DNA from: Sporosarcina oncorhynchi
GTDB taxonomy: Bacteria; Bacillota; Bacilli; Bacillales_A; Planococcaceae
Reading direction: 5' to 3'
Assembly: GCF_033304615.1 (NCBI RefSeq)
Contig: NZ_CP129118.1
Coordinates: 2,104,001-2,168,000 of the forward strand
DNA: 64,000 nt
Both the position numbers and the translations under genes were made by a program. Shown piece after piece: positions 24,750 through 30,346 of the stretch. The notes beneath the pieces are model-generated. The model did not search any database, was not told where the DNA came from, and saw only the letters and a list, made by a program, of their open reading frames with translations. Position 1 is the first letter of the stretch. Every line of letters starts with the position of its first letter.

Positions 24750-27608
24750 TTATTGAGTAATTGTAATTGGCGTTGCAGTAGACAATTTGTTTCCTACCGC
24801 ATCCATTATAGAAATAGTGTTTAGCGCTTTAAATACTAAGCCACTATTAATATCAGCTGTAGATACGTTGTCTTGTAGTGTGAAAGTGACAGATTCCATT
24901 CCTGGAGTAGCCGTTGTTGGACTTGTTACAGTAGTTTTACCTGCAACAGTTGCTCCACCAATCACCAATTCAAAATCTTGCGTTCCATTAGTTGTTGTTA
25001 CTGCTTCGGAAAATGTAACTTTAACTTGGTTAGTCCCTACTAATACTGCAGACTTTACAGTCGGAGCAATATTTTCATTTAATGAAACTATGCTCGTAGT
25101 GTACATTTCCATAACTTTAGTAGAACCAGCTGCTTTTACGTTTTGAACGCTGATATTGCGAACACCTGTGAATGTGTTTGAACCTTTTTGAAGATTCAAT
25201 ACAGCCACCTGCTTACCATCTATAGCAGGCTTAAGTGTTACTGATTCAATAACTGCGCCAGAAATTGTATAGTTTGCTACATTACTTGCAGAAGCACCAT
25301 CAACCTCTTTATTAAATGTTACATTTACTTTATTATTGTCTGAAGTATCCTGTTCGATAGCTTCAACGCCTACTACAGCAGTGTTTGCTGGCGTACCGTC
25401 AGTACCTCGTACGAATGATACTGCAGCTTTTGGAGCGACAACTCCGAATTCACTTGCAACGTTATTAAATGTCAAATCAAGTGTGTATGCAGCACCTTCT
25501 ACATCAAAAGTAGTGCCGAGGAATGTATCCAATTCTACACGGATTACTTTTTTGTTTAGAGGATTTTTATAGGCTACTGAAGTAGCTGTAAGATCAGTTT
25601 CACCAATCGTTGTAGTAACATAATTTTTAACGAACGAACCAGTTGCATCAACTGTTGGAGTTGAACCAAGATCAACATTCTTATCGAATGTAAGTTCCAA
25701 GTACTGTTTCATATTCGTTTCGTCTGTAACTACCGCGCTTGATTGTACTTTCGGTGCATTAATATCTGAAACGAAAGTGACAACTTTAGTTGTTGTTTCG
25801 CCCGCTTCACCGCTTAGGTCGACAGCGTTGCTTACCACAACTGTTTTAGCATTATCTAATACAGATGTTGTTGTAACGTTGTAAACAGTCGGGTCAGTTG
25901 AATCTTTAACAACAGTTATTCCAGTCATTCCAGAAACCGTTACCGTTGGTGCTGCTTGTAATTCTTCTGAGAATTTAACTGCAAATGATTTCGCGCCAGT
26001 TTGTGTAATTGTTGAAACAACAGGTTTCACACCGTCTTTGTCACCTTTTTGGAAAGTAACAGTCGTAGGATTAGGTGAAATCAGGTTTTCTGCCATATCT
26101 CTAGTTCCTACAAATGATGCAACGACATCTTGGTTAGCTGCAACATCAGAACCAATTGTGAAAGTAACTTCTTTCGCGCCGGCAGTAAAGTCATTCGTTA
26201 CGCCATTGCCTGATCCGCTTACTACTGTACCGTTTGCAAGCTTGTACGTTACCGTTCCTAATTCCTTAATAGGTTCAGAGAAAGTAACTTTAAATTTGCT
26301 AGCTGACAATCTATCAGTCTTCACAACTGTAGGAGCAGTTTTATCTGCAGTTAGAGTTACCATTCCAGTGTACTTAACGATATTTTTACCGTTATATGAT
26401 TTTACATTGTCTACGACTACATCATAACGCTTAGATAGTACATTTTGTGCAGTAATAGTCAATGTTTTACCGTCTGCTGAAAGCGTACCTGTCAAGTTGC
26501 CTGGCGTAATGCCGTCAAGTGATGTCATTGAAAGTACGTCTGTTTTGAATGTACCGTCAGCGTTCAACAATGTCGCTTTATCTACAGGAAGATTAAAGTG
26601 TACTTGTACTTGAGTAGCACTCAAACCTTCTACTGAAGACACTTCCAAGCTGTTCGGTTCTGCCACTTTCACAGTAACGACTACATCTTCTGCATTGTTT
26701 CCAGCAGCATCTACAGCGCTATACGTGATTTTATAAGTGCCGTAGACTTTAGTGTCAATAGCAGTAAGTCTTTCGCCAGCTTCGTTTGTGATAACTGAAG
26801 TGACTTCAACGTTCTCATCAACGTTGTCAGTTGCAGTTACAACTGGAGCTGTGAACTCTTTACCGTATTCCACGTTAAGTGTTTTTTCACCAGTGTATAC
26901 TAGTTTTGGTGCTTCTGTATCTACTTCTTCTCCTACTTCTACGTTAGAAGTTTTGTAGAGGAATGAAGCGAATTGACCGCGCGTTGTTGTGTTTTTAGGG
27001 TTGAATTGCGGTGCAACCGGGTTTGTGATATCGAAATAGTCTAGTACGTCGATGTATGGACGAGCTTCCGCTTTTGCTTTCGCAAGGTCCGTTACGTCTT
27101 TATCGAACTCTGTTTCTTTGACTACAGTAACTAGATCTGTTTTATGAATAGCGTCATATGCTCTGACAAGAACGATTGCCATGTTTTCACGTGTAATATC
27201 GAGTCCTGCTCCGAGTGTACCATCCGCATAACCATTAAATACGCCATTGTCTTTTACCAATGCTGCGTATTTAAGAAGTTCGTCGTTTGATTTAGATGTA
27301 AGATCCTTGAAACGTGGGTTTGTCTTGTAATCTGCTGGGATTTCATAGTCTAGTGATACTAGCCATTTACCCATCATTTTGACAACATCAGAACGAGTCA
27401 ATGTTTTATTTGGTTGGAATGTACCGTCGGGATATCCGCTAATAACACCTGCTTCTACTAGTGCTTTGATAGCTGGTTCGTGCGTATTCCCTTTCACGTC
27501 GGAAAACTCCGCTGCGCTAACTACTGGCGCGACTGCCGATGCTACCAATGCTGCTGATGCTGCACCGATCATGAAATTACGATATTTCTTTGGTTGGTTG
27601 TTACCCAT
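24750..27608 (-). CDS. S-layer protein with SLH anchor
   Basis: 952 residues, secreted. The signal peptide covers about 1-31 (ends VVSAAEF). Three SLH domains follow at about 33-78, 95-150 and 165-218; their TRSD, ITREN and TTRGQ segments are the conserved cell-wall-polymer-binding spots. Residues 228-318 form an Ig-like DUF5011-type domain (DNVDENVEV, KVYGTYKITYSAVDAAGN). The rest is a string of SbsA-type Ig-like domains (repeated DKTAPTVV, SEPIKEL, VTFSEAV). It is probably the surface-layer array subunit. It has a strong AGAGGAGG ribosome site and a strong terminator. Confidence 0.92.
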   Translation of the reverse strand: MGNNQPKKYRNFMIGAASAALVASAVAPVVSAAEFSDVKGNTHEPAIKALVEAGVISGYPDGTFQPNKTLTRSDVVKMMGKWLVSLDYEIPADYKTNPRFKDLTSKSNDELLKYAALVKDNGVFNGYADGTLGAGLDITRENMAIVLVRAYDAIHKTDLVTVVKETEFDKDVTDLAKAKAEARPYIDVLDYFDITNPVAPQFNPKNTTTRGQFASFLYKTSNVEVGEEVDTEAPKLVYTGEKTLNVEYGKEFTAPVVTATDNVDENVEVTSVITNEAGERLTAIDTKVYGTYKITYSAVDAAGNNAEDVVVTVKVAEPNSLEVSSVEGLSATQVQVHFNLPVDKATLLNADGTFKTDVLSMTSLDGITPGNLTGTLSADGKTLTITAQNVLSKRYDVVVDNVKSYNGKNIVKYTGMVTLTADKTAPTVVKTDRLSASKFKVTFSEPIKELGTVTYKLANGTVVSGSGNGVTNDFTAGAKEVTFTIGSDVAANQDVVASFVGTRDMAENLISPNPTTVTFQKGDKDGVKPVVSTITQTGAKSFAVKFSEELQAAPTVTVSGMTGITVVKDSTDPTVYNVTTTSVLDNAKTVVVSNAVDLSGEAGETTTKVVTFVSDINAPKVQSSAVVTDETNMKQYLELTFDKNVDLGSTPTVDATGSFVKNYVTTTIGETDLTATSVAYKNPLNKKVIRVELDTFLGTTFDVEGAAYTLDLTFNNVASEFGVVAPKAAVSFVRGTDGTPANTAVVGVEAIEQDTSDNNKVNVTFNKEVDGASASNVANYTISGAVIESVTLKPAIDGKQVAVLNLQKGSNTFTGVRNISVQNVKAAGSTKVMEMYTTSIVSLNENIAPTVKSAVLVGTNQVKVTFSEAVTTTNGTQDFELVIGGATVAGKTTVTSPTTATPGMESVTFTLQDNVSTADINSGLVFKALNTISIMDAVGNKLSTATPITITQ

Positions 27609-27888: not shown

Positions 27889-28884
27889 TTATGGCCTCTT
27901 TTTCAAGAACTTCTTATAGATAGGTTGTAAAGCTTTTGGAGTCAGTTCAATATTGTTTTCATGTGCGTATTTTACGGCATGTCCGAGTGCAACTGTCATA
28001 CCACCTGCCACGCTTGCACCGACGACCATACCCGCACCGGGTACTACTTTAACAACTTGACGGAATATCGTTTTTCCAATATTCCCGACGATTGTTGCGA
28101 TGATCAGTTCTTTTGCATTGTCTTTAGATATTGGCTTTCCGTAGAGCGTGGACAATTTCAACATGAGGCTCACTTGAAGAGCAGTAAGCGGAACAAAATC
28201 GGAACCAGGGATTGGAACGGCTCCGATAGCCGCGGCAGAAGCACCTGCTCCTAAAATCCACCGTGTCGCGATTGCCGATTTATCGGCCATATTACTGGCC
28301 ATTAAGATGTCCTTTTTTTTTGACTCTAATATATCGAGGACTTCTTTTTGAAGCATTTGAATGTTTTGTCCCGTACGCGATGAGATGGGTGTGACTGGAT
28401 ATGCATAATTGGTATGGTCCTGGACATATTTCACAAGGCTCGGTATATCGTCTGCAGCATCGATTTTATTTAGAACAAGAATCATGTCTTTATTGACGCT
28501 TGCTATTTTCTTCAATGAAATCAATTCCGCTTCGGATAAAACTGTGCCTGCTGCATTTAAGAAGAAAAGAATTACGTCTGCCTCTTTGTAGAATTTCATT
28601 GTTTCCGCGGAATGCTCGCTGTAAATGTCGTCCAGGCCGGGAGTGTCTACGAAAATGATATTTTCTTTGTAGATGAATTTATTAATTGTTTGCGTTTCTC
28701 CAGGTTTTGCCCCGACTTCCGCGACGTCTGATCCCATCAAACGATTGATTGTCGAGGATTTACCTGCATTGACGTCTCCAATCATCGCTATTAGGATTTC
28801 GCTTTCCAATTGCTCATTTATTTCCGTAGATTTCTCATCGAATATCCGGTCAAACTCCTCGTCTGACATCCAATCTTTGTTCAT
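27889..28884 (-). CDS. GTPase with C-terminal DUF697-like membrane domain
   Basis: 331 residues. The Era/TrmE-like G domain has G1 GDVNAGKS (36-43), G3 DTPG and G4 NKID. The C-terminal part has two small hydrophobic helices (about 200-225 and 255-285) typical of YcjF/DUF697 proteins. It probably works at the membrane; its role is unknown. ATG at 28884 follows GAGGTGC; the longer frame from 28893 is less likely. Confidence 0.87.
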   Translation of the reverse strand: MNKDWMSDEEFDRIFDEKSTEINEQLESEILIAMIGDVNAGKSSTINRLMGSDVAEVGAKPGETQTINKFIYKENIIFVDTPGLDDIYSEHSAETMKFYKEADVILFFLNAAGTVLSEAELISLKKIASVNKDMILVLNKIDAADDIPSLVKYVQDHTNYAYPVTPISSRTGQNIQMLQKEVLDILESKKKDILMASNMADKSAIATRWILGAGASAAAIGAVPIPGSDFVPLTALQVSLMLKLSTLYGKPISKDNAKELIIATIVGNIGKTIFRQVVKVVPGAGMVVGASVAGGMTVALGHAVKYAHENNIELTPKALQPIYKKFLKKRP

Positions 28885-29047
28885 AAGTAGCACCTCTTTA
28901 CTGTTATGGTGAAATTCGCTTATCTTATATACGCTTTATTAGTGGAATAAGATTCAGTTAGTTAATCATTACCCTATAATCCGAATAGTTAAAGCTGTTG
29001 TTTTTAGAGATTTAGGGGGATGCTTAAAAAGTATTATTCTGTATAGG

Positions 29048-29477
29048 TTGACCGGATTTTCGAGATGTTGAGCGGTTTTGAAGCCATGTTGAGCGGATTT
29101 CCAAGATGTTGAGCGGTTTCGTGGCCATGTTGAGCGGATTTCCGAGATGTTGAGCGGTTTTGAAGCCAACTTGAGCGGATTTTCAAGATCTTGAGCGGTT
29201 TCGTGGCCATGTTGAGAGCATTTTCGAGATGTTGAGCGGTTTCGTGGCCAAGTTGAGCGGATTTCCAAGATGTTGAGCGGTTTCGTGGCCAAGTTGAGCG
29301 GATTTCCAAGATGTTGAGCGGTTCTGTGGCCAACTTGAGCGGATTTCCAAGATGTTGAGCGGTTCTGTGGCCAACTTGAGCGGATTTTCCAGATGTTGAG
29401 CGGTTTCGTAGCCATGTTGAGCGGATATTCCAGTTGTCGAGCGGTTCTGTGGCCAACTTGAGCGGATATTCGGGATT
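29048..29477. repeat. 21-unit tandem array of alternating 20- and 21-bp repeats (41-bp period)
   Basis: Every unit begins TTGAGCGG (variants TTGACCGG, TTGAGAGC, TCGAGCGG once each). Unit A (20 bp) continues roughly ATTTCCAAGATG; unit B (21 bp) continues roughly TTTCGTGGCCAAG. A and B alternate without exception: 11 A and 10 B units, exactly 430 bases with no insertion or deletion. The core thus recurs every 20.5 bp on average, about two DNA helical turns. The array causes several open frames on the minus strand, but 41 is not a multiple of 3, so they are not credible genes. Confidence 0.95.
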
Positions 29478-29555
29478 TTGCGAACTGACTACTTTACTGC
29501 AGCCAACAATAAAGATCCTTTCATTAAAAGGCACAATACTTGAATCTAAACCCAT

Positions 29556-29590
29556 ATAAAAAACCATATCTTTTTTGCTAGATATGGTTA
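29556..29590 (-). terminator. Terminator of the GNAT/hydrolase operon
   Basis: Minus strand: AACCATATCT, A-rich loop, GATATGGTT, then TTTTTATAT. Confidence 0.85.
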
Positions 29591-29617: not shown

Positions 29618-30346
29618 CTATAAGCTACTCTCTTCTACTTTTCTTATAAACAAATTAAGATGACTTGTGTAAACTTCTGGTTGTTCACTGTGCACTAAAT
29701 GTCCTGCAAATGGCACAATTGCAACATGTATTTGTTCATTTTGAATAGGGTATTGGATAGCGCCTACTACTTCATGCTTCTTTTCTTCTCCAACAATAAA
29801 GAGTGTTGGGCAACTCAAAGTCGAGACATCCCGCGTTTCATTGAAAGGATACCAGTCTTCCACCATCGATTGCTTCAGAAACTCTCGCCAATCAGATTCG
29901 TGAATGGAGTCAAAATAAATTCCTGCTTCTTTATTCTCCAATACAGCTTTTTGCATGCGGACATCCAGTTGTCTCATCTCTTCCCAATTGCTTGGTTTCT
30001 CAGGAGTAATTCCTGATAGCGTTAAACTAATGAGACGATCCGGGAACATTTTTGCAAATCGTAATCCGACTAATCCTCCAAGTGAACAGCCGACTATATG
30101 AGCTTTTCCCAATCCTAAATCATTCATCGTTTCCCACACATCAATAGCCGCTTCATCGAAATATTTGTGAATATCCAGCTGATCCACACGCGATTTACCA
30201 TGCCCTCTTAAATCTACAACGACGATTTTATACTGTCCTTTGAAGTAATTCTGTTGAAAACTAAAATCAGTTTCGCCAGTTTGAAGTCCAGTATGTAAGA
30301 ATATAATGGGACTACCCTCTCCTAGAACCTTCGAATGAAGAATCAT
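29618..30346 (-). CDS. Alpha/beta hydrolase
   Basis: 242 residues. The nucleophile is in GCSLGGLVG (Ser near 89), the acid residue region is SCPTLFIVGEEKKHE, and the catalytic His is in FAGHLVHSE. VVDLRGHGKS near 45 is typical for the RsbQ/esterase-like group. It overlaps the GNAT stop by 4 bases and is second in a two-gene operon. The substrate is unknown. Confidence 0.88.
   Translation of the reverse strand: MILHSKVLGEGSPIIFLHTGLQTGETDFSFQQNYFKGQYKIVVVDLRGHGKSRVDQLDIHKYFDEAAIDVWETMNDLGLGKAHIVGCSLGGLVGLRFAKMFPDRLISLTLSGITPEKPSNWEEMRQLDVRMQKAVLENKEAGIYFDSIHESDWREFLKQSMVEDWYPFNETRDVSTLSCPTLFIVGEEKKHEVVGAIQYPIQNEQIHVAIVPFAGHLVHSEQPEVYTSHLNLFIRKVEESSL

Follow-up and report, generated by a model that had tools for sequence, protein, structure and literature searches.

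Dispersed 20-21-bp repeat arrays between genes of Sporosarcina oncorhynchi and other Planococcaceae: candidate phased binding sites whose orientation follows replication

Among described bacterial repeats, the closest known kind to the arrays considered here is the STAR element of Staphylococcus aureus, for which the passages available give a 14-bp core, T(G/A/T)TGTTG(G/T)GGCCC(C/A), spacers of 40 bp or more, and a unit length of about 50 bp (PMC3532100). For STAR-like bacterial repeat arrays there is no agreed function and no agreed mechanism of spreading. The REP/BIME sequences are dispersed intergenic repeats that, according to the sections of the source drawn on here, are targets of IS1397, ISKpn1, and ISPsy8, IS3-family elements included, and are broken by them at one fixed point (PMC1525189). 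Tandem copies, array-specific dimers, and changes in copy number between related genomes are the marks of VNTRs or minisatellites. Two further systems combine short words with polarity or phase. Chi and KOPS/SRS are polar chromosome words that are single, unphased, and found on the leading strand, and the plasmid centromere iterons bound by ParR (pSK41-type) are 20-bp repeats that occur at a single locus on each plasmid, next to par genes.

The array described here lies in a window of 64,000 nucleotides of the Sporosarcina oncorhynchi chromosome and is placed among the interspersed intergenic direct repeats, to which its orientation relative to replication and its multi-core ruler are the new additions; searches of open-licence literature yielded no description of the class. 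Like STAR elements, as far as the passages on them go, these are direct repeats dispersed between genes, in which a GC-rich core, short and conserved, alternates with locus-specific spacers; they expand and contract at fixed loci in species-specific places (PMC3532100). They differ in having an 8-bp core, TTGAGCGG, with a 12-13-bp spacer, a 20-21-bp phase, and several cores per genus, as well as a replication orientation and a terminus gap, the passages on STAR giving no orientation (PMC3532100). With REP/BIME sequences they share specific targeting by an IS, seen for all three IS copies of this genome; REPs, however, are palindromic and alternate in BIMEs in the sections available, whereas TTGAGCGG is non-palindromic and the units here are direct, phased, and point one way within an array (PMC1525189). 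All three marks of VNTRs are present, the change in copy number being judged from arrays of two genomes, G124 and G125, matched by spacer only, but here the core is common to unlinked arrays and the 20-21-bp ruler is fixed across sequences. The orientation tracks the replication fork as in Chi and KOPS/SRS, but in clustered tandem arrays that are mostly on the lagging strand; the direct repeats stand about two turns apart as in ParR iterons, but at about 29 chromosomal loci. Three countable regularities, namely a ruler that outlasts the sequence, an orientation linked to replication rather than to transcription, and a terminus gap, separate models of protein binding from models of pure slippage. 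The array also offers a defined bait for a putative reader protein, and the targeted IS an independent second way of getting at the word that is recognised.

Direct reading, TRF, and a script agree on 21 units on the plus strand of the window at 29048..29478, with core starts at 29048, 29068, 29089, and so on to 29458, steps that alternate between 20 and 21 bp, and no indels; TRF reports 29047-29467 with a period of 41, 10.3 copies, and 0% indels. A sequence-only reading of the window had the core recurring 21 times, which holds for the 21 positions, the strict 20/21 alternation, and the lack of indels, but not for the word itself: 18 of the 21 cores are exact TTGAGCGG, and three have decayed to TTGACCGG (29048), TTGAGAGC (29212), and TCGAGCGG (29437). 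The units are of two types, A (TTGAGCGGATTT...) and B (TTGAGCGGTTT...). As had been proposed, the array is intergenic, bounded by genes that end or start at 28893 and 29618. A GTPase gene (MMR_HSR1/DUF697-like, 27889..28893, minus strand) has its 5' side towards the array, from which it is separated by its leader or promoter region (28894..29047, minus strand); a stretch similar to this leader separates, as judged by eye, another array from the gene in S. quadrami (L265) and in G004 (L271). Upstream, on the same strand as the GTPase gene, is an alpha/beta hydrolase gene (29618..30346, minus strand), to which a PHROGs scan added nothing; a hairpin found by eye outside the array and 3' of this gene, AACCATATCT...AGATATGGTT (29562..29589, minus strand), is its probable terminator. 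In addition, a gene for an S-layer-homology surface protein lies at 24750-27608 of the window, and a homologue stands beside the GTPase gene in 10 of 29 relatives' loci (tblastn).

Two open reading frames run across the array on the minus strand, one at 29034..29567, in which CCGCTCAA repeats without a stop, and one in a different frame at 28969..29415. Neither of their products (177 and 148 aa) has a match in Pfam or NCBIfam, and the 20/21 alternation breaks the frame; a protein-coding repeat is consequently rejected, in agreement with the earlier claim, and the frames are stop-free by accident and are not genes. An RNA element is rejected because a search of the array against Rfam gave no match at E up to 1 and because the arrays keep no constant direction relative to flanking genes. 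CRISPR also fails as an identification, given an 8-bp core, 12-13-bp spacers that recur within the array, the lack of an Rfam match at the same threshold, and neighbours that are a GTPase and a hydrolase gene.

The window array belongs to a class of non-coding 20-21-bp repeats that are dispersed over the chromosome. The S. oncorhynchi chromosome (3.48 Mb) holds 277 pairs of TTGAGCGG at 20 or 21 bp (118 plus, 159 minus), and a reversed-pattern control gives 0 over the whole genome; the pattern of the window array is therefore far beyond chance. All 159 minus pairs and 104 of the 118 plus pairs were located and form about 29 arrays after the merging of split ones, the 14 plus pairs without a position being expected beyond 2.571 Mb or inside a masked stretch. 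Arrays with random indels and no phase, for which the sequence-only reading had proposed to look in relatives, were not seen, and the steps between adjacent exact cores (up to 100 bp apart) at the loci of this genome are 21 bp in 227 cases, 20 in 36, 22 in 3, and 19 in 1, with 41, 42, and 63 together accounting for 24. Spacers are array-specific, and the consensus across 332 units of this genome is A-n-G-TTGAGCGG-W-T-t. The clusters counted add up to about 6.6 kb of array sequence, roughly 0.2% of the genome; TRF found zero 20-21-bp arrays in 107 kb of the genome away from them, and no neighbouring gene common to the roughly 29 loci was noticed. A second core in the same genome, GCGCYCGTAAA, has a period of 21/42 and mostly adjoins TTGAGCGG arrays, with which it is co-oriented in all eight neighbouring pairs read. 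Its arrays are at L183 4225-4386, L186 3494-3896, L189 4053-4296, L190 4256-4477, L191 3792-4178, L192 12747-13327, L195 5663-6165, L196 4070-4282, and L201 3696-3967.

Comparison of units within arrays indicates which part of the unit is held constant. Each unit was paired with the unit of the same array that had the most similar spacer, and among 21-mers 38 of 1928 core positions (2.0%) and 238 of 3133 spacer positions (7.6%) differed; among 20-mers, the corresponding figures are 5/320 and 32/480. The p value of about 6e-20 is a guide only, since the pairs are non-independent, and the result is conservative because the choice of partner minimised spacer differences. The core is thus under stronger constraint than the spacers, with variation inside arrays that is about four-fold lower. 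Furthermore, three spacer positions also show little variation, a T two after the core and an A three and a base one before the next core, and the recognised word is therefore probably longer than eight bases. The earlier suggestion that the array is not a product of simple slippage alone draws support from this contrast and from the return of the 20-21-bp spacing in arrays with differing cores, in which the claimed phase is likewise kept; such a pattern would be expected if the DNA were read by something like a protein or a structure.

The statement that the units stand at exactly two helical turns, on the same face of the DNA, is in contrast only approximate. The mean spacing of 20.5 bp in the window array corresponds to 10.26 bp per turn, and if 10.5 bp per turn is assumed, the cores drift by about -16 degrees per unit, or almost one full turn across the array; arrays with mean spacings of 20.0, 20.5, and 21.0 bp are all present. 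Two alternating contacts, which the A and B units had suggested, do not extend to a rule, as the A/B alternation is local and the arrays at 121 kb and 2.57 Mb have a plain 21-bp step.

Within the genus, at least one exact TTGAGCGG pair occurs in 23 of 68 genomes, several of them with a single pair that may be due to chance (the control gives 1 in each of two genomes); S. ureae has TTGAGCGG triplets. Across the family, 81 of 261 genomes, from 10 of 19 genera, contain triplets of TGAGCG at 20-21 bp; with the pattern reversed, 28 of the 261 genomes still give matches, few in most of them. Six genomes were chosen for a high reversed control, 22 more with a non-zero control (e.g., G014 with 13 and G087 with 10) lying outside this sample, and 21-bp arrays with the core CGCGAGTATT are present in G124, G125, G148, G235, G258, and G268 (L240-L263), which are genomes without TGAGCG triplets. 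Copy number differs between spacer-matched arrays of related genomes, one such array having 14 units in G124 but 28 in G125. An unselected sample of 800 kb consisted of 40 stretches of 20 kb, drawn at set positions from seven other Sporosarcina genomes, of which three have many TGAGCG triplets and four have none. TRF detected 41 arrays in it, 30 of which have a period of 20-21 or 40-42; without two that look coding, this leaves 28 presumably non-coding ones, half of which come from one genome (G084 14, G070 5, G073 3, G075 2, G005 2, G085 2, G069 0). In a comparison sample of 400 kb from three genomes of other Bacilli families, a 20-bp row accounts for one of nine TRF arrays. The cores of the sampled arrays include GAGAACTC, GAGTTCTC, AAAGGTCCATT, TGATACGAGCGG, TATGATCGG, CCGATCATAA, AAACGACCAAAG, and others; several can be aligned by eye to a shared theme, TTAYGAKCGG, so that some of them may share an origin instead of having arisen separately. 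Two side observations concern other repeats. In G038, of another Bacilli family, arrays with a 19/38-bp period (GTGTTCTACTTTGCTGAGG, L345 10643-13722) possibly represent a similar class outside the family, and G075 and G073 contain extended tandem repeats (about 219/235 and 400 bp; L297 10721-13099, L308 2136-3713, L312 11306-12485), which differ from the 21-bp arrays.

The GTPase gene served as the anchor for locating the orthologous site in relatives. An orthologue was found in 30 of the 68 genomes, giving 30 loci including that of S. oncorhynchi itself. In S. quadrami, the region upstream of the orthologue contains a 21-bp GCGCTCGTAAAC array of 8.5 units and one CCGCTCAA unit; G004 has a 21-bp array with the core GCGTCCAAAGCG there, and one further locus has a weak 2.4-copy stretch; a 21-bp array is absent at 26 of the 29 other orthologous loci, some of them truncated by contig ends. 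This site can thus be occupied by an array in more than one species, with the core replaced, and in most cases it is empty.

The orientation of the arrays follows replication more than transcription. In S. oncorhynchi the origin is placed near 0 because the start of the contig holds dnaN, recF, and gyrB, and skew brackets the terminus at 1.42-1.73 Mb. With IS-split and adjacent segments merged and a sub-threshold array at 50 kb added, 23 of 29 arrays have TTGAGCGG on the lagging strand (p 0.002) and six have it on the other; the unmerged count is 24:8 (24/32). In G072, whose GC skew places the origin at 950-1012 kb and the terminus at 2.5-2.7 Mb, all 16 array loci fetched are lagging, a cluster at 1,011.7 kb being left out of this count since it falls in the interval that must contain the origin. 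The genes flanking 17 segments of G072 are co-oriented in 3 cases, anti-oriented in 5, convergent in 4, and divergent in 3, with 2 at an edge (crude ORF caller). In G018, with dnaN at 1.9565 Mb, 76 of 164 matches are listed (46 of 49 plus at 0.68-1.79 Mb, 30 of 115 minus at 1.97-2.45 Mb), and all 14 loci among those listed are lagging if arm lengths are usual, an assumption that the outer loci need because skew was checked only at 0.92, 1.35, and 1.79-1.97 Mb. A local GC-skew proxy, which is right for 21 of 25 loci of S. oncorhynchi (2 wrong, 2 unclear), scores loci of other genomes as 27 lagging, 9 leading, and 5 unclear; an exception is Sporosarcina sp. NCCP-2716, in which all 4 scorable arrays are leading. 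The lagging orientation is not an effect of composition, because TGAGCG outside arrays leans to the leading strand (97 leading vs 69 lagging at the loci of S. oncorhynchi); the arrays are G-rich on the core strand (mean skew 0.36), whereas in the chromosome as a whole the excess of G is on the leading strand. Finally, no array turned up around the terminus. Within limits that were chosen after seeing the data, no array was found at 1.18-2.13 Mb in S. oncorhynchi (full lists of 45 and 68 rows included, 14 plus pairs unplaced), and in G072 none of all 71 rows falls at 1.75-3.07 Mb.

An insertion sequence provides another view of the core. Three near-identical IS3-family copies are present in S. 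oncorhynchi, at 90295-91655, 121364-122724, and 191092-192452 (L181, L182, L183), and no further full copies were found in this genome. Each splits an array directly 3' of a core (TTGAGCGG twice, TCGAGCGG once), the three arrays having different spacers and the insertions one orientation. The triplet after the insertion point, TTT or TTC, recurs on the far side of the IS, so the copies are probably flanked by a 3-bp target duplication directly after the core. At both ends the element has the motif GTGGACA-N8-TGAGCG. In genus g32, a relative with 53% identity, at L222 (G132:C54) 266-1600, lies inside a short CGCTCAG array in the opposite orientation and without a clear target duplication; its left end is ATGGACA-N8-TGAGCG and its right end has -CGAGCG, and the array that holds it is the only TGAGCG triplet reported in that genome. 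The ends of three relatives on plasmids, located outside arrays, resemble GTGGACA but lack TGAGCG, and a search of plasmids with the IS DNA gave no close match. The exact triple pattern has four matches in viral contigs; as read, L409, L410, and L411 look coding, with an open frame running through the repeat, and L412 is a 10-bp simple repeat. Viral or plasmid carriage of the arrays is rejected on these results.

Taken together, these results have led to a tentative model, held with a little less than even confidence, in which the arrays would be phased sites for a putative host DNA-binding protein and their polarity would be set or maintained by replication. We infer binding only from the core constraint and the spacing. 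In this model, each unit is a candidate binding site with the core TTGAGCGG, the whole conserved unit being about A-n-G-TTGAGCGG-W-T, and the protein would occupy neighbouring units about two helical turns apart. Replication slippage or unequal exchange would lengthen and shorten arrays locally, which would explain the array-specific spacers, the A/B dimers, and the changes in copy number. Arrays would persist mainly at a distance from the terminus and where the G-rich core strand is the newly made lagging strand, giving a polarity relative to the fork; most likely, they would act as polar binding arrays that organise the chromosome or are related to the fork or a translocase. The core constraint, the identity of the core across arrays, and the shared ruler speak for a host protein that binds them. 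The differences in core between species count against it, as do mean spacings of 20.0, 20.5, and 21.0 bp, with which phase is inexact. So do the six opposite arrays of S. oncorhynchi and the 9 leading ones among 36 scorable arrays elsewhere, the non-zero reversed controls in the family, and the lack of 20-21-bp arrays in the 107 kb of this genome sampled away from the known ones. Furthermore, because arrays are absent from most relatives, the GTPase site included, their function would have to be dispensable or replaceable. A broader proposal, speculative and on balance unlikely, is that of a polar organising system of Planococcaceae chromosomes, in which phased sites, nearly all oriented alike to the fork and absent from the terminus, would serve a putative, fast-evolving DNA-binding reader, with the word turning over between species, the two-turn spacing kept, and mobile elements landing there.

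The chief rival to binding by a host protein, which we consider somewhat unlikely, is that the arrays are functionless minisatellites in which slippage amplifies short intergenic words and nothing binds. Structure in the nascent lagging strand favours expansion, as in the orientation rule of trinucleotide repeats; a foldable G-rich strand would expand when it is nascent lagging strand and contract when it is lagging template, and slippage alone could therefore produce the strand bias. The core strand does fold more stably in 28/28 arrays of S. oncorhynchi, 14/16 of G072, 4/4 of G070, and 7/10 of S. quadrami, and the differing copy numbers of spacer-matched arrays, the lack of conservation of array sites, and the many different cores are what such a process would leave. 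However, slippage does not explain why substitution is four-fold lower in the core, why an identical core is found in about 29 arrays with different spacers, why the 20-21-bp ruler holds across different cores, or why there is a gap at the terminus. An alternative that also ties the arrays to recognition takes the core as the word of an IS3-family transposase, or of a tamed relative, and the arrays as its landing pads or products. The position of all three copies inside arrays, in one orientation and with the probable duplication right after the core, the TGAGCG at the IS ends, and the same association in another genus speak for it. Nevertheless, it is improbable: there are just three near-identical copies genome-wide, one distant (34%) relative was met in the 800 kb of the seven other Sporosarcina genomes, the plasmid relatives imply that the transposase need not read TGAGCG, and the replication orientation is left unexplained. 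The placement of the IS and its TGAGCG ends are also expected if the IS borrows the site of a host protein, and the simplest reading of these few cases is that the IS may have acquired a word that the host reads.

Two further explanations were considered. If the arrays were intrinsically curved DNA, the units would put bends in phase, and shape rather than sequence would matter. With wedge tables, the end-to-end distance is under the mean of column-shuffled copies in 6/6 arrays of S. oncorhynchi, and under 95% of shuffles in 4/6, and the bend per unit exceeds that of shuffled copies on average over 26 arrays. Yet no such signal is present in G072 (15 arrays) or with several other cores, and mean spacing is not constant among arrays; curvature is thus suggestive in S. 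oncorhynchi, is not general, and is rejected as a common denominator, its probability as an explanation being very low. The remaining possibility, arrays of Chi sites for AddAB, appears scarcely credible. It has in its favour that TTGAGCGG includes AGCGG, the Chi word of B. subtilis, and that AGCGG outside arrays is leading-biased (425:273). This bias, however, ranks only tenth among 20 5-mers of the same composition, the arrays are mostly on the lagging strand, opposite to Chi (23/29 in S. oncorhynchi), and many cores of relatives (TGAGCGC, TGAGCGA, GATCGG, GCGAGT) lack AGCGG; Chi arrays are disfavoured by both the orientation and these cores. Apart from the arrays, GAAGCGG, the Chi word of S. 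aureus, is leading-biased 76:27 outside arrays in 391 kb of S. oncorhynchi loci, more so than AGCGG, and is a possible Chi candidate for the genus.
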